From a bacterium (GTDB taxonomy: Bacteria; Vulcanimicrobiota; Xenobia; Xenobiales; Xenobiaceae): a DNA stretch of 34,610 bases. A program made the translations under genes and the position numbers. Location of the stretch: assembly GCA_017458675.1 (NCBI GenBank), contig JAFTAM010000047.1, positions 1-34,610 on the forward strand. Direction: 5' to 3'. The notes under the pieces were generated by a model. It worked only from the letters and a program-made list of their open reading frames with translations. It was not told the origin of the DNA and made no database searches. This document shows positions 1 through 25,017 of this stretch, piece after piece. The first letter of the stretch is position 1, and every line of letters begins with the position of its first letter.

Positions 1-141
1 AGAGTACCCGCTTACAAATCTAGCAAGCTCAGACAATGGCGTAAGTTTCCAATCGTGGGGACATTTACCGCAAAATGGAATATACTCGTTTAGCCAAGCA
101 TTACACATAGTTTTAATTAGCTTAAGTAAATTCTCATTTAT
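1..141 (-). pseudogene. 5'-truncated HsdS fragment (central conserved region plus start of a target-recognition domain), cut by left edge
   Basis: Read on the minus strand, positions 141 to 1 encode an open frame beginning INENLLKLIK and continuing through NEYIPFCGKCPHDWKLTPL to ARFVSGYS at the edge. This has the layout of the central conserved helix of type I restriction specificity subunits (INENL, then a W and a PF motif) followed by the DWK...L...G opening of the second target-recognition domain. The first half of the gene is missing: upstream of the INENL motif the frame runs into a T-tract that is part of the neighbouring terminator. The only ATG is at 108, without a Shine-Dalgarno sequence. 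HsdS chooses the DNA sequence recognised by a type I restriction-modification enzyme. A half gene starting at the central repeat is typical of silent cassettes in shuffling hsdS loci, but a plain deletion remnant is equally possible. Assignment rests on motif pattern only. Confidence 0.55.
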
Positions 142-144
142 CGT

Positions 145-174
145 AAAAAAAAACGCCGCGGAGAGGCGCTTTGC
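145..174 (-). terminator. Rho-independent terminator of the DUF4143 ATPase gene
   Basis: On the minus strand, just after the ATPase stop codon, a short GC hairpin (CGCC, 7-nt loop, GGCG, extended by A-T and G-T pairs) is followed by nine T residues. It lies exactly where homology to HsdS starts on the same strand. Confidence 0.65.
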
Positions 175-185
175 TTTAAAGGCGG

Positions 186-1439
186 TTAAAAGTCCAGGCT
201 GTTTGGATTGAGCAGGAAGTCGAATATGTTCATGGTCAGAATGCCTTTTTCGTTGTAAAGCGGAGCTAAGGCGTCTTTGGTTACGATTATTTTTTTGAAG
301 GCGTCGTCGGTTTTGAGAAGCGAGCGCTGCTCCTGTTCTCTCTTGGCTTGGTCGGGCAGGGTCAGGGCGGACTGAATGTAAAACCGTTTTGAGCCTTTGT
401 TGCAGACAAAGTCAATTTCCAGCTGTTTGCGGATTTTTTTGCCGCTTCGGTCGGTTTCGTTGGATACTATTATCCCTATATCCACGTTATAGCCGCGCGC
501 CTTCAGTTCATTAAAGATGATGTTTTCCATGGCGTGATTCTCTTCGATTTGCCGGAAATTCAGCCGGGCGTTCCTGAGACCGAGATCGCCGAAATAATAT
601 TTTAAGGGAGCTCCGATGTATCTTTTCCCTTTAATATCGTAACGGCTCGCGCTGTCGATCAGAAATGAATCTTCCAGGCACTCGATATACTTTTTCACGG
701 TGTTCGGACTTAAAGTTTTGTTTTTGATGCTTTTAAAGGCCGCAGAAAGCTTGGTCGGGTTGGTGAGCGAGCCTATGGCTGAAGATAAAATATTTAATAT
801 TTCTTCCAGCTCAATTTTATTCTTTATTCTGTTTCTGCCGATGATATCGGAAAGATAAGTCTTACTGAAAAGCCTTTTGAGAAATTCCGCTTTTTGCTCG
901 GGAGAAGTCTGCTCCAAAACCAGGGGAATGCCTCCGTAAAGAACATACTCGCTCCAGGCGGATACTCTGTCGCCGGAATATACGCTCATAAATTCCGCGA
1001 AGGTGAGAGGATACATATGGATTTCGTCGCCGCGTCCCCGGAATTCCGTTATAATATCCTTGGATAAAAACTTGGCGTTGCTTCCGGTAACATAAATATC
1101 GACATTTCTGAGGCGCGCCAGACTGTTGAGGACCGCTTCGAATTCGTCAAGCAGCTGGATCTCGTCCAAAAGAATATAGTATGGAGCGCTGTCGGCAATT
1201 TGCTCCTTTATGTAAGGCAGGAAAGCTTCGGGACTGCGGTATTTCTTATTTTCGTACAGATCGAAGGCTATTTCCAGAATGTGATTTTCGGGAACGTTTT
1301 CGCTCAGAAGGCGATCGCGGAACAGATTGAAGAGCAGATAGGATTTTCCGCATCTCCTTAGGCCGGTAATAACTTTAATAAGTTTATTGTGTCTTTTTGC
1401 CAAAAGCTTGTTGAGATAGAGATCTCTGCTGATTTCCAT
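186..1439 (-). CDS. AAA ATPase of the ATP-binding / DUF4143 type
   Basis: Predicted protein of 417 residues. The N-terminal half is a P-loop ATPase: Walker A GLRRCGKS around residues 26-33, Walker B ILLDEIQ around 90-96, and a TGSNAKF sensor-like segment near 118. A REFRGRGDEIHMYPLTF-type linker follows. The C-terminal half ends in a DUF4143-like region with LEIDFVC, resembling the nuclease-fold part of this family. Members are widespread in gut and oral bacteria, often in variable regions; their molecular role is not established. I chose ATG 1439 because AAAAGG lies 9 nt before it and the family normally begins a few residues before RxxYL; an ATG at 1457 in the same frame lacks a ribosome site. 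A terminator follows, and two matching palindromes lie upstream, suggesting autoregulation. Confidence 0.85.
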   Translation of the reverse strand: MEISRDLYLNKLLAKRHNKLIKVITGLRRCGKSYLLFNLFRDRLLSENVPENHILEIAFDLYENKKYRSPEAFLPYIKEQIADSAPYYILLDEIQLLDEFEAVLNSLARLRNVDIYVTGSNAKFLSKDIITEFRGRGDEIHMYPLTFAEFMSVYSGDRVSAWSEYVLYGGIPLVLEQTSPEQKAEFLKRLFSKTYLSDIIGRNRIKNKIELEEILNILSSAIGSLTNPTKLSAAFKSIKNKTLSPNTVKKYIECLEDSFLIDSASRYDIKGKRYIGAPLKYYFGDLGLRNARLNFRQIEENHAMENIIFNELKARGYNVDIGIIVSNETDRSGKKIRKQLEIDFVCNKGSKRFYIQSALTLPDQAKREQEQRSLLKTDDAFKKIIVTKDALAPLYNEKGILTMNIFDFLLNPNSLDF

Positions 1440-1566: not shown

Positions 1567-1737
1567 CATTTGAAAATCTGCAGGCTTTGCCGGGGCAAGG
1601 TTGGCCGCCGGCTGTCCCCGCCGGTCCGCAGTGCGGCAAAATGGCGGAAATGCGCGGATAATTTCCGGAGAGCATACGCCTAAACACTGTCGGTAAGTTA
1701 AGCTAAAACAGGCTTTAAGCATACACGCTTTGCACAG

Positions 1738-1805
1738 GTTTTGTTTTGTACTGAAGCGAGCGTCCGAAGCGAAGCGCAGTCGCGGAGCGAAGTACAAAAC
1801 AAAAC
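1738..1805. repeat. Inverted repeat with 15-bp perfect arms
   Basis: Arms GTTTTGTTTTGTACT (1738-1752) and its exact reverse complement (1791-1805) enclose 38 bp rich in GAAGCG/GCGAAG words. It is flanked by direct TAAAACArGC motifs. It resembles a small palindromic repetitive element; there is no coding capacity. Confidence 0.7.
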
Positions 1806-1838
1806 CGGCATAGCTAAAACAAGCAGAACATGCTTGAA

Positions 1839-1865
1839 AGATTCTTCGCTGCGCTCAGAATGACA
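1839..1865. repeat. Dispersed intergenic repeat, copy 1
   Basis: The stretch begins AGATTCTTCGCTGCGCTCAG and ends GAATGACA. Related sequences occur as inverted pairs at 8072-8132 and 13641-13694. Similar AGATTCTTCGCTCAGAATGACA-type repeats are scattered through many bacterial genomes; their function is unknown to me. Confidence 0.65.
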
Positions 1866-2095
1866 AGGGAAACAGTTACAAGCATTAGTAAAACAAGCTA
1901 ATGTATCTATTTTAGCAATATTTTGCCTTAACTTTATGACATGCGCTTAAAAGGCCGTTTTATACGTTATGATGAATCCGGCGGGCGGCTGAGGCTTGGG
2001 ATGACTGTCCGGGCAGGCTTGCCGCTTTTTTTGACAAAATCTTCGCGGCTGAAAAGCGCGATCATGAACTTGGGTCCGGGGAATTTTTGACTGTT

Positions 2096-5000
2096 ATGGC
2101 GGGATTTTATACGGAAGAGAATTATGAAAATTCTCTTATAGAGCTCTTTCGGAATTTAGGCTACGGCTATGTTTACGGTCCTTATGAGGAGAGAAACTTT
2201 TACAGTCCTCTTTACGAAAAGGAGCTGGAGGAGGCTTTGCACAGGCTCAATCCGCGCCTTCCGGAGGCGGCTCTTCAGGAGGCTCTTTTTAAGCTGAAAA
2301 ATTTTGAAAATGCCGATCTGGTTCAGAAAAACGCCGTCTTTACGGATTATCTTCAGCACGGCGTCGAGGTTCGCTATACGGACGGCGGCGAGGAACGCTC
2401 TGCTCTGGTCTATCTGGCCGACTATAAAAATCCCGATAACAATACCTTCATAGCTGCCAATCAGTGGACGTTTATCGAAAACAGCAATAAGCGGCCGGAT
2501 ATAATTATCTTTCTGAACGGCCTGCCGATAGCGCTGATTGAGCTCAAGTCTCCCTCCCGGGAAGAGACGGACGCCTCGGAAGCTTATAAGCAGTTACGAA
2601 ACTATATGCACGAGATCCCCTCTATGTTCATTTACAACTGCATCTGCGTCATGAGCGACCATCTGACCACCAAGGCGGGGACGGTCACTTCCGGGGAAGA
2701 CCGCTTTATGGAGTGGAAAACCAAGGAGGGCAGTTACGAAAACACCAAGTATGCGCAGTTTGATACTTTTTTTGAGGGAATCTTCGCCAAGGAGCGCCTT
2801 CTCGACATTATCAAAAATTTTATCTGTTTTTCCGACGAAGGCCTGAAGAGTTATAAAATCCTGGCCGGATATCATCAGTATTTCGCGGTCAAAAAAGCCA
2901 TAGAATCGACAAAGCGGGCGGCGGCCTCCGACGGAAGGGGCGGCGTGTTCTGGCATACTCAGGGCAGCGGCAAATCGCTGTCGATGGTCTTTTACGCCCA
3001 TCTTCTGCAGGAAGCCATGGACAGTCCGACCGTGGTGGTCCTGACCGATCGCAACGATCTTGACGATCAGCTTTTCGGACAGTTTGCCAAATGCCGGGAT
3101 TTTCTGCGGCAGCAGCCGCTCCATGCCGAAAATCGGGAACATCTGAAGTCATTGCTGGCGGGGCGTCAGGCTAACGGCATAATCTTTACTACCATGCAGA
3201 AGTTTACGGAATCCCACGAGCCTCTGTCCGAACGCAGAAACATTGTGGTAATGGCGGACGAGGCCCATCGCGGGCAGTACGGATTTAAGGAAAAAATAGA
3301 TACCGCCACGGGAAAGATCAAGACGGGACTGGCCCGGATTATCCGCGGAAGCCTGCCCAACGCTACATATATAGGCTTTACCGGAACCCCGGTGGCTCTG
3401 AAGGACAGAGTGACCTGCGAGGTGTTCGGAGATTATATCGACGTCTATGATATGACCCAGGCCGTTGAGGACGGTGCCACCCGTCCGGTCTATTACGAAA
3501 GCCGGGTTATAAAGCTGAAGCTGGACGAAAATACCCTGCGGATGATCGACGCCGAATATGACCTCATGGCCTGCAATGCCGATCCGGAGGTTTTAGCCAA
3601 AAGCAAGCAGGAGCTCAGCCGCATGGAGGCGGTTTTGGGCAGCGACCAGACGGTGGCTTCCTTAGTCGACGATATCCTCGAGCATTACGAGAATTGCCGG
3701 GCCGGGCTGCTGACCGGGAAAGCCATGATCGTCGCTTATTCCCGCGCCATCGCCGTGAAAATTTACCGTCGGATCATGGAGCTGCGGCCGTCCTGGGGCG
3801 ATAAGATCGCCGTCGTCATGACTTCGAGCAACAAGGACCCTGAAGAATGGCATGCGCTCATCGGCAACAAGCGCCGCCGCGACGAGCTGGCCAAGAGGTT
3901 TAAGGACAACGGCGATCCGCTCAAGATCGCCATCGTCGTCGATATGTGGCTGACCGGCTTTGACGTACCCTCGCTGGCCACTATGTATATTTATAAGCCG
4001 CTGCAGGGACACAACCTCATGCAGGCGATCGCCCGCGTAAACCGCGTCTTCAGGGACAAGGAGGGCGGTTTAATAGTCGATTACATCGGTATAGCCTCAG
4101 CTCTTAAAGAGGCTATGAGCGCCTATACCTCCCGCGATAAAAAGAACTACGGCGATACCGATATTGTCAATACCGCCTATCCCAAGTTTCTGGAAAAGCT
4201 CTCGGTCTGCCGCGATATATTTCACGGCTGCGATTATTCCCGGTTCGCCGAGGGGAGCGACCTGGAGCGTTCCAAAGCTATCAGCGGCGCGGTCAATTTT
4301 ATATGCGCCGTCAATAAAGAGCGCGAGCGGGAAAGCTTCCTGAAGGAAGCTCTGCTGCTGCGTCAGTCCCTCTCGCTGTGCGCTTCGCTTGCCGAAAGAC
4401 CGCTGCGCATAGAAGCGGCTTTCTTTGAAGCGGTTCGGGTTCTGGTCATGCGGATAATGAGTCAGGGCGAAGGCAAGCGGATCTCTTTGCCGGAGATGAA
4501 CGCCCGAATTCAGGCTCTGCTGGAACAGAGCATTAAGAGCAGCGGCGTGATAAACCTCTTCTCGGACGTCAGCGGCGATTTTTCTCTGTTCGATCCTAAG
4601 TTTTTGGAAGAGATCGGACGGATGAAGGAAAAGAACCTGGCCGTTGAGCTTTTGAAAAAACTCATTGCCGAACAGATTTCCCTTTACAAAAGAACCAATT
4701 TGGTTAAGTCCGAAAAATTCAGCGAAATCATTCAGCAGGTCATGAACAGATATCTCAACGGCATGCTGACCAACGAACAGGTCATTGAAGAACTGCTGAA
4801 ACTGGCCAAAGATTTAAAAGAGGCCGGGGAGGAAGGCGAACAGCTGGGACTTACGCCCGATGAACTGGCTTTCTATGACGCTCTGACCAAGCCGCAGGCC
4901 ATCAAGGATTTTTATGAGAACGAGGAGCTCGTCGCCATTACCAAGGAACTGACGGAAACGCTGCGGCGCAGCCGCACGGTTGACTGGCAGCGACGCGAAC

Positions 5001-5140
5001 CGGCCCGGGCCAAGATGCGCATGATGGTCCGCAGGCTTTTGAAAAAACACAAATATCCGCCGGAGGGCATGGACGACGCCGTCCAGACCGTAATGCTCCA
5101 GTGCGAACTTTGGACGGACAACAACGACATGAGCGCATGA
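2096..5140 (+). CDS. hsdR: Type I restriction enzyme, R subunit (HsdR)
   Basis: Full-length R subunit of about 1014 residues, the usual size. HsdR is the ATP-driven DNA translocase and nuclease of type I restriction-modification and works only in complex with HsdM and HsdS. In order: a PD-(D/E)xK nuclease domain (D135 in RPDIIIF, E149 and K151 in IELK); helicase motif I QGSGKS with K293; DEAH box at 388-391 (MADEAHRGQYG); motif III GFTGTP near 427; motif VI QAIARVNR near 643; and a helical C-terminal region for complex assembly. ATG 2096 fits the family start (MAGFYTEENYE); a TTG at 2087 is 5 nt after GGGG and could be used instead. No hsdM is present in the window. The only hsdS trace is the fragment at the left edge, so partners must lie outside or be lost. 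The frame is intact with all motifs, which argues for function. Confidence 0.95.
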   Translation: MAGFYTEENYENSLIELFRNLGYGYVYGPYEERNFYSPLYEKELEEALHRLNPRLPEAALQEALFKLKNFENADLVQKNAVFTDYLQHGVEVRYTDGGEERSALVYLADYKNPDNNTFIAANQWTFIENSNKRPDIIIFLNGLPIALIELKSPSREETDASEAYKQLRNYMHEIPSMFIYNCICVMSDHLTTKAGTVTSGEDRFMEWKTKEGSYENTKYAQFDTFFEGIFAKERLLDIIKNFICFSDEGLKSYKILAGYHQYFAVKKAIESTKRAAASDGRGGVFWHTQGSGKSLSMVFYAHLLQEAMDSPTVVVLTDRNDLDDQLFGQFAKCRDFLRQQPLHAENREHLKSLLAGRQANGIIFTTMQKFTESHEPLSERRNIVVMADEAHRGQYGFKEKIDTATGKIKTGLARIIRGSLPNATYIGFTGTPVALKDRVTCEVFGDYIDVYDMTQAVEDGATRPVYYESRVIKLKLDENTLRMIDAEYDLMACNADPEVLAKSKQELSRMEAVLGSDQTVASLVDDILEHYENCRAGLLTGKAMIVAYSRAIAVKIYRRIMELRPSWGDKIAVVMTSSNKDPEEWHALIGNKRRRDELAKRFKDNGDPLKIAIVVDMWLTGFDVPSLATMYIYKPLQGHNLMQAIARVNRVFRDKEGGLIVDYIGIASALKEAMSAYTSRDKKNYGDTDIVNTAYPKFLEKLSVCRDIFHGCDYSRFAEGSDLERSKAISGAVNFICAVNKERERESFLKEALLLRQSLSLCASLAERPLRIEAAFFEAVRVLVMRIMSQGEGKRISLPEMNARIQALLEQSIKSSGVINLFSDVSGDFSLFDPKFLEEIGRMKEKNLAVELLKKLIAEQISLYKRTNLVKSEKFSEIIQQVMNRYLNGMLTNEQVIEELLKLAKDLKEAGEEGEQLGLTPDELAFYDALTKPQAIKDFYENEELVAITKELTETLRRSRTVDWQRREPARAKMRMMVRRLLKKHKYPPEGMDDAVQTVMLQCELWTDNNDMSA

Positions 5141-5292: not shown

Positions 5293-5526
5293 ATGGCCTG
5301 TAAAATTATCGATGTTCACCGTTCAGACCGCGGCGGGCGTTACAGCGACCCGGCCTGCAATCCTAACGGCTTCCAACATCAGGGCAGAATTTTAGGTTTT
5401 CAGGACCCTCATTTTCTTTTGCATAAAAGATATTACGAAGCGCACAAAACCTGGACTATGCCTGACGAGGCCGGATTTGAAGCGCCTCAGGGAATGCTTG
5501 GAGCCGATGAGTTTTTCGGCCGCTAG
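5293..5526 (+). CDS. Short soluble member of the five-gene MACxxIDVH paralogue array (paralogue A)
   Basis: 77 residues, family not recognised. It starts MACKIIDVHRSD, like the four genes that follow, and ends with the family's C-terminal block: NPNGFQHQGRIL, then a D-x-HxLLH core, YY, TWTMPDE. The middle part found in the other four (PMCLP, basic HKK, two membrane segments) is absent, so this copy should be soluble. It keeps Cys3, Asp7 and His9 and has one further Cys in DPACNPNG. A strong AAAGGAG ribosome site stands 9 nt before the ATG. It lies 152 bp behind hsdR and 40 bp before paralogue B. It could be an internally deleted copy or a functional soluble form; the intact frame and good ribosome site favour the latter. 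Confidence 0.75.
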   Translation: MACKIIDVHRSDRGGRYSDPACNPNGFQHQGRILGFQDPHFLLHKRYYEAHKTWTMPDEAGFEAPQGMLGADEFFGR

Positions 5527-5566
5527 GCTTCAGACTTTGATTTTCAGCATAGCATAAGGAGCAGAA

Positions 5567-6043
5567 ATGGCTTGCGTACTGATTGACGCTCATATTTACA
5601 GTCAATATGAAATTAAACCTAAGCTGCCTCGGGAGCCGATGTGCTTGCCTGTTGAGGTTCACAAAAAACATGTCCTCAAATGGTTTGTTTTATTTTTTCT
5701 GCTGATGGCCCCGTCGGTGCTGCTTTATTCTCACTTATTAGACTTTTCCCGGTATGATGAGGCGATGAATATTGCGGTATCCTTTTTGGGCTTTATTATA
5801 CCTGTAGCGTTATTCTCTGTCATGTATGCATGCTTTAAAAGCAGCCGAAAGAGGATGTTTGCCAAGCTGCAGAGTCCGATGCACAATCCGCAGGGCTATA
5901 AATATCAGGGGCGGGTGCTGAGCCAGAACGACGCCCATTATCAGCTGCATCTGCTCTATTACAAAACGAACGGAACCTGGACGCTGCCCGACGAAGTCGA
6001 GCACAGCGGCTTTGTAGGACAGGGCGGCTTCAGCGGCGGCTGA
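5567..6043 (+). CDS. Small two-pass membrane protein, paralogue B of the tandem array
   Basis: 158 residues; I recognise no named family. Layout: an N-terminal cytosolic-looking block with Cys3, Asp7, Cys26 in EPMCLP and His32; a hydrophobic segment at about 38-58; a second at about 68-92; a basic stretch (KSSRKR); then the C-terminal block NPQGYKYQGRVL, HYQLHLLYY, NGTWTLPDE. A glycine-rich tail (GFVGQGGFSGG) is unique to this copy. The array repeats this plan in C, D and E. ATAAGGAG lies 5-6 nt before the ATG. With both ends on the same side of the membrane, the conserved terminal blocks could meet and form one domain; the Cys/His/Asp pattern might bind metal. Both ideas are inference. Confidence 0.8.
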   Translation: MACVLIDAHIYSQYEIKPKLPREPMCLPVEVHKKHVLKWFVLFFLLMAPSVLLYSHLLDFSRYDEAMNIAVSFLGFIIPVALFSVMYACFKSSRKRMFAKLQSPMHNPQGYKYQGRVLSQNDAHYQLHLLYYKTNGTWTLPDEVEHSGFVGQGGFSGG

Positions 6044-6127
6044 GCTGAGTTTTTTTCGTTTGTTGATCGCCTGGCAGCGGCTGGGCTGCCGAATTTAGAA
6101 TTTATTAACCAAAGGGCTGCGGTAAAA

Positions 6128-6613
6128 ATGGCTTGTACGCTTATTGACGTTCACAAATACGGTAAGGATGAAAAAGAGACTGAGATCCCGCAGGAGCCGG
6201 TGTGTCTGCCTGATGACATTCAAATCAGGATTACTCTGAAGATAATAGCCGTTATGCTCATAATGTTTGCGCTCATGATGGCTTTGCTGTATTTTAACGG
6301 CCGCCTGCGGGAGGAAAGCGGCGGCGGTCCCGCCGCTTCGGCCGCTCAGTCAGAGGAGGGCGGCGAAAATAATTTTTCCTTTTTTGACATAATCATACCC
6401 GTGGGCGTATTCGGCGCTTCTGTATTTTTAATCCGAAATGTTCAGGAAAACGCTTTCAATCGGCTGCAGAATCCTATATATAACCCAAAGGGCTGCAAAT
6501 ATCAGGGGCGGATATTGAGCAAAACTGAAGACCATTATCGGCTGCATCTGGATTACTACAATGCGCACGGAACCTGGACGCTGCCGGACGAACTCGAGCG
6601 CGGCGGGGATTGA
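6128..6613 (+). CDS. Small two-pass membrane protein, paralogue C of the tandem array
   Basis: 161 residues, same family as its neighbours, function unknown. N-terminal block MACTLIDVHKYG with Cys3 and His9, PVCLP with the second conserved Cys; a membrane segment at about 38-58; then a longer, low-complexity acidic/Ala/Gly loop (GGGPAASAAQSEEGGE) not found in the others; a second membrane segment at about 84-104; and the C-terminal block YNPKGCKYQGRIL, HYRLHLDYY, HGTWTLPDE. The conserved His of the HKK motif is replaced here (DDIQIR). The leader AAAGGGCTGCGGTAAAAATG is nearly the same as those before D and E, showing that the ribosome site was duplicated together with the gene. Spacing to D is 53 bp, too short for an obvious separate promoter. 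Confidence 0.8.
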   Translation: MACTLIDVHKYGKDEKETEIPQEPVCLPDDIQIRITLKIIAVMLIMFALMMALLYFNGRLREESGGGPAASAAQSEEGGENNFSFFDIIIPVGVFGASVFLIRNVQENAFNRLQNPIYNPKGCKYQGRILSKTEDHYRLHLDYYNAHGTWTLPDELERGGD

Positions 6614-6666
6614 GACAAGAAAGGTTAGGCAGGAAACTTGAATAATTTTAAAGGACTGCGGAGAAA

Positions 6667-7092
6667 ATGGCTTGCAAGTTAATTGACGTTCACCATTACG
6701 GGCGGTATGAAAAACGGCCGAAGATCCCTAAAGACCCGATGTGTCTGCCCGTTGACATACATAAAAAGCTCAGATTGAAGGTATTTGCTCTGATAGCTGT
6801 TATGTTTGGGATTCTGCTGGTTTATCTTTTATTAGGCGGCAGCGAAAAAGACTTTACTCTGTTTGACGTTTTGGTCACTTTGGCTGTGTTCGGCGGCGGC
6901 GTTTACTGTATTGTAAAAGTTCAGGAAAAGGTCTATGCCAGGCTGCAGGATTCCATTTATAATCCAAAGGGCTGTAAATATCAGGGCAGGATCCTCAGTA
7001 CGAACGACCCCCATTATCAGCTGCATCTTAACTATTACAACACGCACGGCAGCTGGGAACTGCCGGACGAACTCGAGTACGCTGCCGATTGA
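6667..7092 (+). CDS. Small two-pass membrane protein, paralogue D of the tandem array
   Basis: 141 residues, the most compact member and close to what looks like the family consensus. MACKLIDVHHYG, PKDPMCLPVDIHKKL, membrane segments at about 38-56 and 66-86, then VQEKVYARLQDS, YNPKGCKYQGRIL, HYQLHLNYY, HGSWELPDE. It is closest to C in the C-terminal block and to E in the N-terminal block and second membrane segment, as expected of serial duplication. The ribosome leader AAAGGACTGCGGAGAAAATG matches those of C and E. No enzyme motif is visible. The gene is probably co-transcribed with its neighbours; function unknown. Confidence 0.8.
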   Translation: MACKLIDVHHYGRYEKRPKIPKDPMCLPVDIHKKLRLKVFALIAVMFGILLVYLLLGGSEKDFTLFDVLVTLAVFGGGVYCIVKVQEKVYARLQDSIYNPKGCKYQGRILSTNDPHYQLHLNYYNTHGSWELPDELEYAAD

Positions 7093-7144
7093 GGCAGAGA
7101 AGGCTGAAATAGAAACTTGAAAATTTTAAAGGGCGGCTGAGAAA

Positions 7145-7579
7145 ATGCCTTGCAAGATAATTGACGTTCACAGTTACGGGAAATGCGAAATAAAACCGAA
7201 GTTCCCTAAGGAACCGATGTGTCTGCCCGTTGAGGTTCATAAAAAGCTCATATTGAAGAAAATAGCGCTGATAGCTTCAATATATGTGATTCTGCCGGCT
7301 TATTTCTTTATCGGCAGCGGCAGACTGACTGTAAACGAATTTACCGTAACCGATATTCTTGTAACTGTCGCCGTGATCGGCGCGGTGATATACTCGGTTA
7401 TTAAAGTACAAAAGAATACTTACGCCAGGCTGCAGGACCCCATGCACAATCCCCGGGGCTGCAGATATCAGGGGCGGGTGCTGAGCGAGGACGACGCCCA
7501 TTATCAGCTGCATCTGGACTATTACAAAACGCACGGAACCTGGACGCTGCCGGACGGGTTCGAGCCCGGGGCCGAATGA
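7145..7579 (+). CDS. Small two-pass membrane protein, paralogue E of the tandem array
   Basis: 144 residues, last member of the array. It starts MPCKIIDVHSYG (Ala2 changed to Pro; Cys3, Asp7, His9 kept), then PKEPMCLPVEVHKKL, membrane segments at about 39-57 and 68-88, and the C-terminal block HNPRGCRYQGRVL, HYQLHLDYY, HGTWTLPD. In this copy the closing DE is DG. The leader AAAGGGCGGCTGAGAAAATG repeats that of C and D. The MazG-like gene starts 27 bp after the stop codon, so the two are likely in one transcript. Function unknown. Confidence 0.8.
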   Translation: MPCKIIDVHSYGKCEIKPKFPKEPMCLPVEVHKKLILKKIALIASIYVILPAYFFIGSGRLTVNEFTVTDILVTVAVIGAVIYSVIKVQKNTYARLQDPMHNPRGCRYQGRVLSEDDAHYQLHLDYYKTHGTWTLPDGFEPGAE

Positions 7580-7606: not shown

Positions 7607-8062
7607 ATGTCGGATGATTTAAACAGAGAGTATGCGGAAACGGATATAACCGAGGAGGAAGCCGAGAGCAGGCGGGCGGTCTTGGAAAACGGGGAGGCTG
7701 CCGTTACGGTTGAGCAGCTGCGGCTGGCGGTGACCGCCTTCAGGGACGTCCGCAATTGGAGGCAGTTTCACAATCCCAAGGATCTGGCGGTGGCGATGGC
7801 GGTAGAGGCGGCCGAGGTCCTGGAGCTCTGCCGCTTTAAGACCGATGAAGAAATTGCGGCTGCCGTAAAAGCAGGCGATCACAGCTTCGCCGACGAGATG
7901 GCCGACGTGCTTTCCTATCTTCTGAGCCTGGCCGACGTTTTGAACATAGACTTGCCCAAGGCCCTGGCCGCCAAAATGAAAATCAACGCCGAGCACTATC
8001 CGGTTAAGCTGGCCAAGGGCCGGGCCGCGAAATACACCGAGCTGCAGCGGAACCGGGATTGA
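7607..8062 (+). CDS. MazG-like nucleotide pyrophosphohydrolase (all-alpha NTP-PPase)
   Basis: 151 residues. The core from about residue 35 matches small all-alpha NTP pyrophosphohydrolases of the MazG / dCTPase (RS21-C6) type: FRDVRNWRQFHNPKDLAVA, then the metal-binding pair E67xxE70 in VEAAEVLEL and E97xxD100 in DEMADVLSYLL, and a C-terminal KMKINAEHYPVKLAKGRAAKY signature. Such enzymes hydrolyse (d)NTPs to (d)NMP and pyrophosphate with magnesium, clearing non-canonical nucleotides; some act in phage defence by nucleotide depletion. The first 30 residues are an acidic extension with no family match. AGAGGGT stands 6-7 nt before the ATG. Position directly behind the paralogue array and downstream of hsdR hints at a shared accessory role, but housekeeping nucleotide clean-up is the default reading. 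Confidence 0.9.
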   Translation: MSDDLNREYAETDITEEEAESRRAVLENGEAAVTVEQLRLAVTAFRDVRNWRQFHNPKDLAVAMAVEAAEVLELCRFKTDEEIAAAVKAGDHSFADEMADVLSYLLSLADVLNIDLPKALAAKMKINAEHYPVKLAKGRAAKYTELQRNRD

Positions 8063-17690: not shown

Positions 17691-19676
17691 ATGACAATGG
17701 TCAGCGCGACTATAGGTCGCTACCAAATAATTGAAGAACTGGGACGTGGAGGCATGGGAGTTGTCTATAAGGGACACGATCCGCTGCTGAACCGTTCTGT
17801 CGCTATTAAGATTCTCTCCCAGCAGCTTGTCGGCAACGCCGAGTGCAAGGACCGCTTTATCCGTGAAGCTCAGGCTGCGGCGCGTCTGAACCATCCTAAC
17901 ATTACCGCTATTTACGATATCAACGAGCATGAGGGCATATATTTCCTCGTCTTCGAGTTCGTCAACGGCATGTCTCTGGATAAATACATGCAGGAGCACG
18001 GCCATTTAGGCGTTGACGAATCCCTGAAAATCTTTATCGCCGCGGCCAGAGCCCTCGACTACGCTCACCAGCACGGCATTGTGCACCGCGACGTCAAGCC
18101 CGGCAATATTATGGTTACCGAAAGCGGCGACGTCAAGGTCGGCGACTTCGGCATCGCCTGGGTGGAGGCCTCGCAGACCCTGACTCAGCCCGGCCAGGTA
18201 ATAGGCTCCTGTTTCTATTTCTCTCCGGAGCAGGCCCGAGGCGAAAAGGTCGACCGCCGCGCCGATATTTATTCTTTGGGCATTCTGCTTTACGAAATGC
18301 TGGCCGGTCAGGTCCCTTTCAAGGCCGACAACCTGCCGGCGGTCATCCAGCTCCATCTGACCAAGGAGCCCGAGCCGCCTACAAATTACAATATGGCCAT
18401 CCCCACCAATGTGGAGCGGGCCGTACTGCGCTGCCTGAAAAAGGACCCCGCCGAGCGCTATCAGAACGTCACCGACTTAATCAACGATCTCAATTTCGAA
18501 GAGAACAAGGAAGATTTAAGCGTCAGCAAGATCAGCCCTTCGGAAGCGGCTCTGCACAACATTCTGGGCAACAACTACTATAAACAGGGCAAGCTCGACC
18601 TGGCGGTCATGGAGTGGAACAAGGCTACCGGCCTGGACCCCTACAACGCTCTGACCCACAACAACCTGGGCACCGCCTTGGACGGCATGGGCAAACTGAG
18701 CGACGCCATTACCGAATACGGCAAGGCCGTGGATTTGAACCCCAACAACTTTGTGGCTCACTACAATTTAGGTTCGGCCCATTACCGCAACGGCAATGTG
18801 GAGGAGTCCATTGAGGAGTACCGCATGGTTACGGTGCTCAATCCCAAATTCGCTCCCGCCTACTACAATCTGGGCAACGGCTATTTCCGTCTGGGCAAAA
18901 TCGACTCGGCCATCGAGGAATGGCAGAAGGCGCTGATTCTCAATCCTCAGTTCGCCGAGGTTCTCTACAACTTAGGCAACGCCTATTACCAGAAGGGCCG
19001 CCGCGAAGAAGCCAAAGACTATTGGAACAAGGCTTTAGAGATCGATCCTCAGTTTGCCATCGCTCTTTACAACGTGGGCAGCATGCGCATGGAGGAGGGC
19101 GAGGTGGACGGCGCCATCGAGCTCTGGCAGAGGTGTCTGGAGGTCAACCCCGACTTCGCCGAAGCCCGCTACAATCTGGGCAACCTCCATTACGATCGCG
19201 GCGAAGTGGAGCTGGCTATTCCCGAATGGGAAAAAGCCACTCAGGCCAAATACGGCTTCTGGCAGGCCCATTACAATCTGGGCAACGCCTACTGCTATCT
19301 GGCTCAGTACGACGAGGCCATCAACCAGTGGCAGAAGACCGTGCAGTTTGAGGACCAGCACTGGCCGGCTCACTGGAATCTGGGCAATACCTACTATTAC
19401 GAGCGCGCCCAGATCGAGGCGGCTATCGTGGAGTGGCAGAGAGTGGCGGCCATCAACGGTCAGTACTGGCAGGCCTTCTACAATTTAGGCGAGGCCTATC
19501 TCACTCAGGGCAAGATCGAGCTGGCCTGCCTGGAGTGGGACAAAGTGGTGCAGATCAATCCCAAGTTCTGGCACGTCTATCACAATTTAGGCTCCCTCTA
19601 TTATCAGCGCGGCAAGCTGGATCAGGCGGTAGCCTACTGGACCAAGGCCATAGCTCTGATGCTCTTCCCCTGGTAA
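17691..19676 (+). CDS. Cytoplasmic Hanks-type Ser/Thr protein kinase fused to 11 TPR repeats
   Basis: 661 residues. Kinase domain at about 11-270: glycine loop GRGGMGVVYKG (18-28), ATP-anchoring K40 in VAIKIL, catalytic loop HRDVKPGN with D134, DFG with D152, then SPEQARGE and RADIYSLGILLYEM. All catalytic residues are present, so it should phosphorylate Ser/Thr. Residues 285-655 are 11 tandem TPR units of about 34 residues with the recurrent form YNLGNAYY...AIEEWQKA...NP. The Trp in the second helix recurs in most units, an unusually regular pattern. No membrane segment follows the kinase, unlike the PknB/PASTA type. The TPR array probably recruits substrates or partners. AAGGAG is 11 nt before ATG 17691; an ATG two codons on is an alternative. 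A strong terminator closes the gene. Confidence 0.95.
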   Translation: MTMVSATIGRYQIIEELGRGGMGVVYKGHDPLLNRSVAIKILSQQLVGNAECKDRFIREAQAAARLNHPNITAIYDINEHEGIYFLVFEFVNGMSLDKYMQEHGHLGVDESLKIFIAAARALDYAHQHGIVHRDVKPGNIMVTESGDVKVGDFGIAWVEASQTLTQPGQVIGSCFYFSPEQARGEKVDRRADIYSLGILLYEMLAGQVPFKADNLPAVIQLHLTKEPEPPTNYNMAIPTNVERAVLRCLKKDPAERYQNVTDLINDLNFEENKEDLSVSKISPSEAALHNILGNNYYKQGKLDLAVMEWNKATGLDPYNALTHNNLGTALDGMGKLSDAITEYGKAVDLNPNNFVAHYNLGSAHYRNGNVEESIEEYRMVTVLNPKFAPAYYNLGNGYFRLGKIDSAIEEWQKALILNPQFAEVLYNLGNAYYQKGRREEAKDYWNKALEIDPQFAIALYNVGSMRMEEGEVDGAIELWQRCLEVNPDFAEARYNLGNLHYDRGEVELAIPEWEKATQAKYGFWQAHYNLGNAYCYLAQYDEAINQWQKTVQFEDQHWPAHWNLGNTYYYERAQIEAAIVEWQRVAAINGQYWQAFYNLGEAYLTQGKIELACLEWDKVVQINPKFWHVYHNLGSLYYQRGKLDQAVAYWTKAIALMLFPW

Positions 19677-19876: not shown

Positions 19877-19988
19877 ATGCAGGCATTCAGTTGCAGATGT
19901 ACCCGTGGCTTAACGGATAGAGCGGCTGGCTACGGACCAGCAGGCTGGGGGTTCGAGTCCCTCCGGGTATACCAGAAAAGAGTCCTTG
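19866..19988. repeat. 123-bp exact direct repeat containing tRNA-Arg, copy 1
   Basis: Identical to 21677-21799, covering the -10 box, the tRNA and the ascending arm of its terminator. Outside these limits the two loci differ, including the first 11 bases of the promoter spacer. Confidence 0.95.
19899..19974 (+). tRNA. tRNA-Arg (anticodon ACG), copy 1
   Basis: 76 nt folding into a complete cloverleaf: acceptor GTACCCG/CGGGTAT with a G-U first pair, D stem GCTT/GAGC, anticodon stem GCTGG/CCAGC with loop CTACGGA, T stem GGGGG/CCCTC with loop TTCGAGT, discriminator A and encoded CCA. Anticodon ACG (A34 normally edited to inosine) reads CGT, CGC and CGA arginine codons. Identical to the copy at 21710-21785. 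Confidence 0.97.
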
Positions 19989-21687: not shown

Positions 21688-21799
21688 ATGCAGGCATTCA
21701 GTTGCAGATGTACCCGTGGCTTAACGGATAGAGCGGCTGGCTACGGACCAGCAGGCTGGGGGTTCGAGTCCCTCCGGGTATACCAGAAAAGAGTCCTTG
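21677..21799. repeat. 123-bp exact direct repeat containing tRNA-Arg, copy 2
   Basis: Identical to 19866-19988, 1811 bp downstream in the same orientation. The intervening segment carries the macro-domain and Sel1 lipoprotein genes. Confidence 0.95.
21710..21785 (+). tRNA. tRNA-Arg (anticodon ACG), copy 2
   Basis: Same 76 nt as the copy at 19899-19974, with full cloverleaf, anticodon ACG and encoded CCA. It keeps its own promoter and terminator, so it should be expressed independently. Confidence 0.97.
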
Positions 21800-21943: not shown

Positions 21944-23470
21944 TTAAGCGTCTTCGTCCTTAAAGAGCGGCTTCCACTGGCCCTTTCTGCAGTTCTCCGG
22001 GCCCAGGTATCCGGTCATGTCAGGATGCTCGTAAAGACGCCACATAAGGCCCTCAAAGACCTTGGCATAGTAGCTGCACATGGGCGATTCCCGCATGATG
22101 GTTCCGAAGAAACTCAGCGTTTTAGAGGTGCAGCCGCCGGTGCAGAAGCGCTTGAACATGCAGCGCCGGCATTTGGGAATGTTGTTGACGCAGCGGGAAT
22201 TGAGCTCGGCAACCTGCGGACTGGAGTCGATCAGCTCCTTCAGATTAAGACCGGGATCGTAAATATTGGCCAGCTTCAGGAAGCCGCTGGAGGCCAGTTC
22301 CTCGCAGGCGTGGATGCCTCCGTCAATGGCGAATCCGAAGACGGAGTTCCCCGCGCCGCAGGGAGAGCGGTAGCACATGAAGGGACGTCTTTTGAAGATT
22401 AAATTGTTGATTTGGTTGTCGATGTCGCTTATGCGCAGATGAGTATCGTGCTTTTTTGCAAATTCGTAAGCGTGATCGACCATATTCAGCCAATTCTCGG
22501 CAAATTTGCCGTTGCGGTCCAGGGGAAAATCGAGCAGCCGGGCGCTTCGGCCTATGTATGAGGAATAGTTGAGCCGGAATTCGCGGAGCCCCAGCTCCTC
22601 GGTGAAAAATTTGAAGCTGGTCAGATAGTCGGCTGGGTCGTGGATGACGCCCAGAACTCCGGGCCTGAGCCCCATCTCTTTGGCTCTCTTCAGATTTCTG
22701 ACGATAACCTCGAAACTGCCGCGTTCCCCGTTCTGAGTTCCGGCGAAGATGCGGTTTTTGTCGTGGACGCTTTTAGGGCCGTCCAGGCTGACTCCGAACT
22801 GCAGGCGGGGGATACCTTTCAGAATTTCGATATTTTTTTCGTTCAGCAGAGTTCCGTTGGTCTGGAAGCTGTAGAGCAGCTTCTTGCCTAAGTTTTCTTC
22901 TTCATTGAGCTGTTCGGCATAATTGACCGCTTCGACAATTTTATCCAGAGCCAGCAGCGGCTCGCCGCCGTGAAAGTCTATGGTAAAGGTGTCGTTGGGC
23001 AGCTCAGTGAGAACTTTGCGGATGGCAAATTTATAGACTTCCAGAGGCATGGCTTTGTTGGTGGGCACCGAGTCGGCCAGACAGTAGCGGCAGGCCAGAT
23101 TGCAGGCTTCGGTTATGTGGAAGCAGATAAAATCGGGATACTTTTTAGGCGTTTTGAAGGTCTCGGCGGGATCGCAGTAAAGGCGTCCGTTGACGGTAAG
23201 CATATTCTGGCGGTAGAGCTCTAAGGTGACTTCGCTGCGCTTGAGCTCCGAGAAGGGATGTTCAATTTCCAGAATCTGCTTCCAGGCGCCGGCTGTGGGA
23301 AGCTTTTTCCAAAAATCGAAATAGAGCGGAGGCAGGACCGCCCAGGAAGCGCTGTCGGGATCGATCAGCAGGCACAGATCTCCTTTGCGCTTGAGGCGGA
23401 GAGAAGGATTTTTGCCTAAGCAGGCTTGAGGTGAAATCCACTGTTGGCCGGTAGTTTTAGTGTTGTTCAT
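21944..23470 (-). CDS. Radical SAM/SPASM peptide-modifying enzyme, second gene of the pair
   Basis: 508 residues. Residues 1-100 form a small domain (SLRLKRKGDLCLLIDPDSASW...ELYRQNMLTVNGRLY) in the place where maturases of ribosomally made peptides often carry a PqqD-like recognition element. The radical SAM core begins with C123xxxC127xxC130 (CNLACRYC), followed by DFHGGEPLLALDK and FQTNGTLLNE. A SPASM domain closes the protein: CYRSPCGAGNSVFGF, GIHACEEL, then CVNNIPKCRRCMFKRFCTGG and PMCSYY, giving ligands for two auxiliary 4Fe-4S clusters as in anaerobic sulfatase-maturating enzymes. The start overlaps the stop of the first gene by 4 nt (ATGA). The two proteins share the whole layout, so they probably modify the same or related peptides. 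Sulfatase maturation is less likely, as no sulfatase is present. Confidence 0.9.
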   Translation of the reverse strand: MNNTKTTGQQWISPQACLGKNPSLRLKRKGDLCLLIDPDSASWAVLPPLYFDFWKKLPTAGAWKQILEIEHPFSELKRSEVTLELYRQNMLTVNGRLYCDPAETFKTPKKYPDFICFHITEACNLACRYCLADSVPTNKAMPLEVYKFAIRKVLTELPNDTFTIDFHGGEPLLALDKIVEAVNYAEQLNEEENLGKKLLYSFQTNGTLLNEKNIEILKGIPRLQFGVSLDGPKSVHDKNRIFAGTQNGERGSFEVIVRNLKRAKEMGLRPGVLGVIHDPADYLTSFKFFTEELGLREFRLNYSSYIGRSARLLDFPLDRNGKFAENWLNMVDHAYEFAKKHDTHLRISDIDNQINNLIFKRRPFMCYRSPCGAGNSVFGFAIDGGIHACEELASSGFLKLANIYDPGLNLKELIDSSPQVAELNSRCVNNIPKCRRCMFKRFCTGGCTSKTLSFFGTIMRESPMCSYYAKVFEGLMWRLYEHPDMTGYLGPENCRKGQWKPLFKDEDA

Positions 23471-25017
23471 GGAAGGTCTGCCTCCGCAGAAAGATTATGC
23501 TTGGGGTCGGGGTTCTGAAGCGCCAGAGCCTGCAGCAGGTCTTCTTCGGCGCCCAGCAGCCACATCAGGTCGGGATACAGCTCCTTATAGAGCCCGCACA
23601 TGGCTTCGGGGAAATTGAGCCCGCCGTTTTGGGCCAGGGCTCTTTGAGCGCAGCCGCCTCCGCAGTGGCGTTTGAGCCAGCAGCGGCGGCATTTGGAAAT
23701 ATTTTCGACGTTCCGGCTCAGCAGATGTTTCAGGTTCTCGTTTTTCACCGGCAGTTCGGCTAAGGGGGGCAGCTCTTGCGCATTTCCCAGGAAAAGAGCG
23801 CTTTTGCAGCTCTGTTCGTATTCTTCGCAGGCGTATACTCCGCCCTCTGGGTCCAAAGACAGGATTGAAGTCCCTATGCCGCAGGGAGATCGCAGGCACA
23901 TATAATCCTGCCTGAATTCAGCCAGACTTTTCAAGCGAAACTGGAGATCGTAAATATTGAGCGGGCGGCCGCAGCTCCGGAAGCGCTGCAGCGCTTTGAA
24001 TATAACCTTCAGATAGGGCTCGCGGTAGGCGGAGGGAGGACATAAACTTTCTTTCAGTTCGCGTCCACGCCCCAGAGGGCAGAAGAAGTTGAAGCGCATG
24101 GATTCGCAGCGCAGCTCTTCAATGAAAAAGTCAAAAGCTTCCTCCAGCTGCTCCGGAGCATATATGACCGCCAGAGGGGAGACCTTCAGCCCCAGTTCCT
24201 GAGCCTTTAAAAAGTTTGAGCAGATCAGGCCATGGAAGGAGCTTCCCTGAGAATTGCGCCGGTAACGGTCGTGCCAGCGGGCCGGACCGTCTATGGATAC
24301 GCCCACGCCCACGCCGTGTTCCCTTAAAAGACGGGCGGTTTCTTCGCTGAGCAGCATGCCGTTGGTCTGCAGCAGAAAATTGATTTTTTTGCCGTATTGC
24401 GAAGCCAGCGGCGGCGCTTTCCTCAGAATCTCTTTTACGGTATCCAGGGCTAAAAGCGGTTCGCCGCCCAGAAAATCTATGTTCAAAACCGGAGCGGGCA
24501 GCTCGGCGCAGGCTCTTTTTATAAAGTATAAAGCCGTTTCTGTCTGCAGAAACTTTTTTGAATTCTGGCCGGAAGAATTGTAGCAGTAGGCGCAGCGCAG
24601 ATTGCAGTCCGAGGTCATGTGCAGGGCCAGAAAATGAGATCCCAGCGGCGGCTCGGGCCCGGAGGCGTATCGGGGATGCATTTTGCCGCCGACGGAGATA
24701 AAGCCCATATTGTAGGCGACGTCCAGCAAATTGGCGGCGTATTGGGGATCGGACGGATTCAGAGCGCTGAGGAGGCCGTCCAGGGTTCGGGGACGGCTGA
24801 GAAGGGCAAAGAGAGCTTTTTCCCGAACGCTGACGGTTTTCCAGGTTCCCAAGGCCTTATTGACTATCCAGGCCGTACCCTCTCGGGGATGTTTCAGTCC
24901 CTGAGCGCGGGCCAGTCGGCTCAGCTGAAAACTTTTTATTTCCGTATCCGGATGCTTGGCGATCAGAACGGAAGCGCTTAATGGCAGATTGGGATTGCTG
25001 GGGAAGTTAAGGTACAT
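23467..25017 (-). CDS. Radical SAM/SPASM peptide-modifying enzyme, first gene of the pair
   Basis: 516 residues. N-terminal part about 40-115 (GTAWIVNKALGTWKTVSVRE, FALLSRPRTLDGLLSAL, NMGFISVGGKMHP) looks like a PqqD-type recognition element: beta hairpin, helix, winged end. Radical SAM core: C138xxxC142xxC145 (CNLRCAYC), DFLGGEPLLALDTVK, LLQTNGMLLSEE, GVSIDGPARWHDRYR. SPASM end: CLRSPCGIGTSILSL, GVYACEEYEQ, LGNAQ, CRRCWLKRHCGGGC and MCGLYKELYPDLMWLL. It resembles, and is probably an old duplicate of, the next gene. ATG 25017 has no good ribosome site; a short frame at 25007-25087 that overlaps the start could couple translation. Chemistry (thioether, epimerisation, carbon-carbon link) cannot be read from sequence. 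Confidence 0.9.
   Translation of the reverse strand: MYLNFPSNPNLPLSASVLIAKHPDTEIKSFQLSRLARAQGLKHPREGTAWIVNKALGTWKTVSVREKALFALLSRPRTLDGLLSALNPSDPQYAANLLDVAYNMGFISVGGKMHPRYASGPEPPLGSHFLALHMTSDCNLRCAYCYNSSGQNSKKFLQTETALYFIKRACAELPAPVLNIDFLGGEPLLALDTVKEILRKAPPLASQYGKKINFLLQTNGMLLSEETARLLREHGVGVGVSIDGPARWHDRYRRNSQGSSFHGLICSNFLKAQELGLKVSPLAVIYAPEQLEEAFDFFIEELRCESMRFNFFCPLGRGRELKESLCPPSAYREPYLKVIFKALQRFRSCGRPLNIYDLQFRLKSLAEFRQDYMCLRSPCGIGTSILSLDPEGGVYACEEYEQSCKSALFLGNAQELPPLAELPVKNENLKHLLSRNVENISKCRRCWLKRHCGGGCAQRALAQNGGLNFPEAMCGLYKELYPDLMWLLGAEEDLLQALALQNPDPKHNLSAEADLP

Follow-up and report, generated by a model that had tools for sequence, protein, structure and literature searches.

A multi-copy family of small proteins with conserved ends and predicted membrane hairpins, arrayed in tandem beside a type I restriction gene

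The window (the whole stretch of DNA analyzed here, 34,610 nucleotides, contig C185) contains five forward-strand genes, A to E, lying one behind the other between positions 5293 and 7579. Every start codon is ATG and the gaps between neighbors are 40–84 bases. The five products align over their full length; identity to D runs from 45 to 57%, and 20 columns of the alignment are invariant. Over all pairs of the eight complete copies described below, local alignment scores lie 16 to 91 standard deviations above those of composition-matched shuffles. The claim of the initial annotation that the open reading frames at these positions are five paralogous genes is thus borne out: A to E form a genuine array. 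The genes on either side (Table 1) do not belong to the family. The MazG-like gene starts 27 bases past the end of E and is possibly co-transcribed with it.

Table 1. Coordinates of family members, their flanking genes and repeats
Feature	Location	Strand	Description
HsdR, type I restriction subunit	window 2087..5140	+	PF04313, PF11867, PF18766; upstream of A, not a family member
Gene A	window 5293..5526	+	77 aa; C block directly after the first 9 N-terminal residues, hydrophobic hairpin missing
Gene B	window 5567..6043	+	158 aa; predicted two-helix hairpin, residues 40-58 and 69-87
Gene C	window 6128..6613	+	161 aa; predicted two-helix hairpin, longer Ser/Gly/Glu loop
Leader of D	window 6632..6666	+	near copy of E leader (7110-7144)
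Gene D	window 6667..7092	+	141 aa; predicted two-helix hairpin, residues 39-57 and 65-83; copy modeled with AlphaFold2
Gene E	window 7145..7579	+	144 aa; predicted two-helix hairpin, residues 40-58 and 68-86
MazG-like gene	window 7607..8062	+	PF12643, E 6.5e-12; not a family member
F	C129 (L012) 3358-3861	-	complete copy
A remnant	C129 (L012) 3892-3969		5'-truncated, C-terminal end only; just upstream of F
G	C125 (L013) 672-1181	-	complete copy
H	C125 (L013) 84-635	-	complete copy
Third C125 copy	C125 (L013), at contig end		first 23 codons present
Dispersed repeat copies	window 1685-1942; L012 3074-3329, 6578-6859; L013 7645-7873, 9812-10211		

Full-length members of the family carry a conserved N block (about 36 aa) and a conserved C block (about 44 aa). 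The motif strings by which these blocks were first described hold as a consensus, but they are not literal in each copy. In the C block, A reads HFLLHKRYY and HKTWTMPDE, B reads NGTW, D HGSW and E LPDG; in the N block, QIR replaces HKK in C. The two hydrophobic segments reported for four of the genes were found in B to E and are missing from A. Less of the proposed likeness among the leaders of C, D and E survives: those of D and E are near copies, but that of C matches them over the last ∼20 bases only. The leader of B resembles that of F, a copy on another contig, rather than these, and the Gly-rich tail of B is also present in F.

A search of the genome (3.28 Mb in 196 contigs, 90% complete) revealed that the five-gene array is an incomplete rather than a wrong description, since contigs C129 and C125 carry further copies and fragments. 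The genome thus holds at least nine copies, eight of them complete and one interrupted where its contig stops, besides a truncated one. The complete copies are intact open frames on three contigs, all with the two-block layout. The A remnant on C129 retains only its C-terminal end and adjoins F, so that the pair looks like a duplicate of A and B. Repeated tandem arrays, which the initial annotation had named as support for a new family, occur on both C185 and C125.

Of the eight complete copies, all but A contain a pair of hydrophobic segments. These seven are predicted to form two-helix hairpins, in support of the membrane location first proposed. Lys/Arg-rich sequence precedes the first helix and follows the second, and in B to F the helices are joined by a short or acidic loop. 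This distribution of charge suggests, although it does not settle, that both conserved ends are cytoplasmic; in G and H the loop is basic, and for these two copies the positive-inside argument is weaker.

Nine residues are invariant in the eight complete copies (D numbering): Met1, Cys3, Gln106, Leu110, His116, His120, Tyr124, Trp130 and Pro133. The metal site earlier conjectured from Cys3, His9 and Cys26 is not supported in that form: position 9 is occupied by Tyr in H, and the segment that contains Cys26 is missing from A. The metal-capable residues retained in all eight are instead Cys3, His116 and His120; if the family binds metal at all, these would be the candidate ligands. A reading of the family as lipoproteins was rejected, there being no signal peptide ahead of Cys3.

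AlphaFold2 models, resting on an alignment with five sequences, were of low confidence, both for D (mean pLDDT 64.9, pTM 0.41) and for A (mean pLDDT 55.2, pTM 0.38). Both predict a short N-terminal strand and a helix across DPHYQLHLxYY, the latter carrying an HxxxH motif; the model of A has an additional strand at QGRIL. Such a secondary structure is compatible with a small domain to which both termini contribute, without proving it. In the model of D a second strand, at 23–28, comes after the N-terminal one and the C block contributes an isolated bridge residue only, which leaves contact between the ends hypothetical.

The copies are mosaic. Measured at conserved residues, the codon identity of B and E falls from 0.91 in the C block to 0.59 in the N block and 0.38 in the middle (Fisher p 0.0014, uncorrected across pairs); that of D and E is 0.95 in the N block as against about 0.65–0.67 elsewhere (p 0.008, likewise uncorrected across pairs). 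Such unevenness between the blocks of one pair points to gene conversion among copies, so that the conservation of the ends in part reflects recent exchange. G and H show greater synonymous divergence and nevertheless retain both blocks, with residue identities of 33–57% in the end blocks versus 6–22% in the middle, which argues that selection acts on the blocks too. Values of dN/dS are below 1 in most end-block comparisons and generally below 1 in the middle. The initial attribution of the conserved ends to selection therefore needs to be shared: the diverged copies speak for it, but part of the similarity stems from ectopic gene conversion.

Relatives were sought well beyond this genome. Among 149 genomes of the phylum (its own and 148 others, including one congener, 86% complete, and six members of the same family), neither the full-length profile nor the C block alone detected a relative in the other 148. 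Matches to the C-block profile were confined to its own genome, bar weak ones elsewhere (E 0.04–0.9) that we judged to be chance: seven were inspected, the layout was seen in none, and the readable ones resemble a methyltransferase, a PIN-like protein and a Sel1-repeat protein. Short-peptide pattern scans, which can overlook diverged members, returned no relative from the GTDB-species collection (one genome per species) or from viral collections; neither did tblastn against phages and plasmids. The family had been put forward as unrecognized, and in keeping with this no profile of Pfam, NCBIfam, PHROGs or PADLOC exceeded its curated cut-off or gave an E below 0.001 (best E among the eight copies 0.048; the NCBIfam comparison took in A to E only). 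A profile search of PDB sequences gave no significant match (best E 0.98), and a Foldseek comparison of the low-confidence D model with the PDB gave none at E ≤ 0.001 (best E 0.46). DUF3784 (PF12650) and Otopetrin (PF03189) resemble the family at chance level and in their hydrophobic segments only, falling short of the cut-offs of 28 with their 12–13 bits (E about 0.1) and leaving the conserved blocks uncovered. The family is probably an orphan confined to one lineage.

The surroundings of the copies are not uniform: type I restriction–modification genes are linked to the family on C185 and C129, but not on C125, and the family is found in no other genome that could extend the comparison. On C129, after F and the A remnant come hsdM, a nucleotidyltransferase gene, its HEPN-like partner and hsdS; the nucleotidyltransferase and HEPN-like pair occupies L012 828–1548, between hsdM and hsdS. 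Near the C125 copies are genes for a Sel1-repeat protein and for a C_GCAxxG_C_C protein of redox type, with a DUF1016/YhcG nuclease gene about 4 kb away. Positions 1–141 of the window are identical to positions 1–141 of C129 and lie inside hsdS, the two sequences diverging beyond. The pattern hints that the assembly branched where a segment of hsdS is duplicated or inverted, in which event the C129 and C185 copies would flank a single restriction locus, possibly a phase-variable one.

Other features of these contigs may be recorded here. An intergenic repeat of about 260 bases is dispersed through the genome (at least 50 matches, 74–100% identity), one copy lying just downstream of F. Elsewhere in the window, two tRNA-Arg (acg) genes (19899–19974 and 21710–21785) are contained in a 160-base direct repeat of 94% identity and flank two genes, one for a macro-domain protein and one for a Sel1-repeat protein; a protein kinase domain is fused to an extended series of TPR repeats (17691–19676); and two radical SAM genes sit side by side on the reverse strand (21944–25017).

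The best-supported reading, which we hold tentatively and at somewhat less than even confidence, is that the family comprises a membrane-anchored cytoplasmic interaction domain that has been duplicated in tandem and is probably oligomeric, with A as a soluble variant. A full-length copy would be a two-helix hairpin in the inner membrane with both blocks probably cytoplasmic, where they would probably pack as one small interaction domain made up of a short strand near residues 3–8, a strand near 105–110 and a helix near 115–127 bearing His116 and His120. Copy number would grow by tandem duplication, and the end blocks would pass between copies by gene conversion as the membrane part drifts. Homo- or hetero-oligomers would most likely assemble through the common cytoplasmic ends, and A, its hairpin lost, could serve as a soluble partner or competitor.

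Three other explanations were weighed against this one. The family may be no more than a weakly selected, duplicating orphan in a plastic region, its copies made and decayed by unequal recombination and its role a general one in the envelope. The truncated A remnant, the loss of the hairpin from A, gene conversion, the dispersed repeats nearby and the family's absence from the single congener all speak for this. Against it stand the intact frames of all eight complete copies, dN/dS values mostly below 1 and the invariance of Cys3, His116, His120, Tyr124, Trp130 and Pro133, which extends to the most diverged copies; we regard the explanation as possible but doubtful. Arrays of immunity genes are a known pattern, and an array of paralogues whose membrane segments vary and whose ends recombine recalls it: each copy would answer to a different membrane-active toxin or bacteriocin, the membrane part diversifying on a preserved cytoplasmic scaffold. 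The two-helix immunity proteins of bacteriocin and polymorphic-toxin systems are likewise small and membrane-bound, and they often occur as arrays of paralogues. However, their models do not contain the conserved ends of this family, the closest being the Bf21 family (NF053700; 11 bits where the cut-off is 350, E 0.2), and no toxin gene was recognized among the searched flanking genes of any copy. Neither an RHS repeat nor the type VI secretion protein VipA was found on searching the 90% complete genome, which lowers the immunity reading further, and dN/dS generally below 1 in the middle sits poorly with diversification. An orphan immunity array thus seems quite unlikely.

An effector or accessory of type I restriction, namely a two-helix defense protein that strikes the membrane once infection is sensed, is an improbable explanation as well. 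Two hydrophobic helices and genes adjoining a type I restriction locus are what such effectors would share with the family: hsdR stands directly upstream of A to E, restriction genes follow F and the A remnant, and even C125 has its YhcG-type nuclease. But none of the eight copies matches PADLOC, no cognate sensor or nucleotide cyclase was recognized beside the arrays, the 10 kb contig C125 has no restriction genes next to its copies, and the dispersed repeats mark plastic regions in which the neighborhood may be incidental. A bolder combination, in which a cytoplasmic domain formed from both ends is organized round a Cys3/His116/His120 metal site, linked to type I restriction with a variable hsdS and shaped by gene conversion within a defense island, appears very improbable; if true, it would define a new family of two-helix membrane proteins.

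Orphan membrane families in tandem are common, and in general terms our findings are only moderately surprising. Their value is that of a clean case: a multi-copy orphan membrane family in which the exchange of end blocks between paralogues is visible, and one that is useful for the question of how new genes spread and diversify. Should the link to type I restriction be functional, the family could be an undescribed component of defense or immunity.
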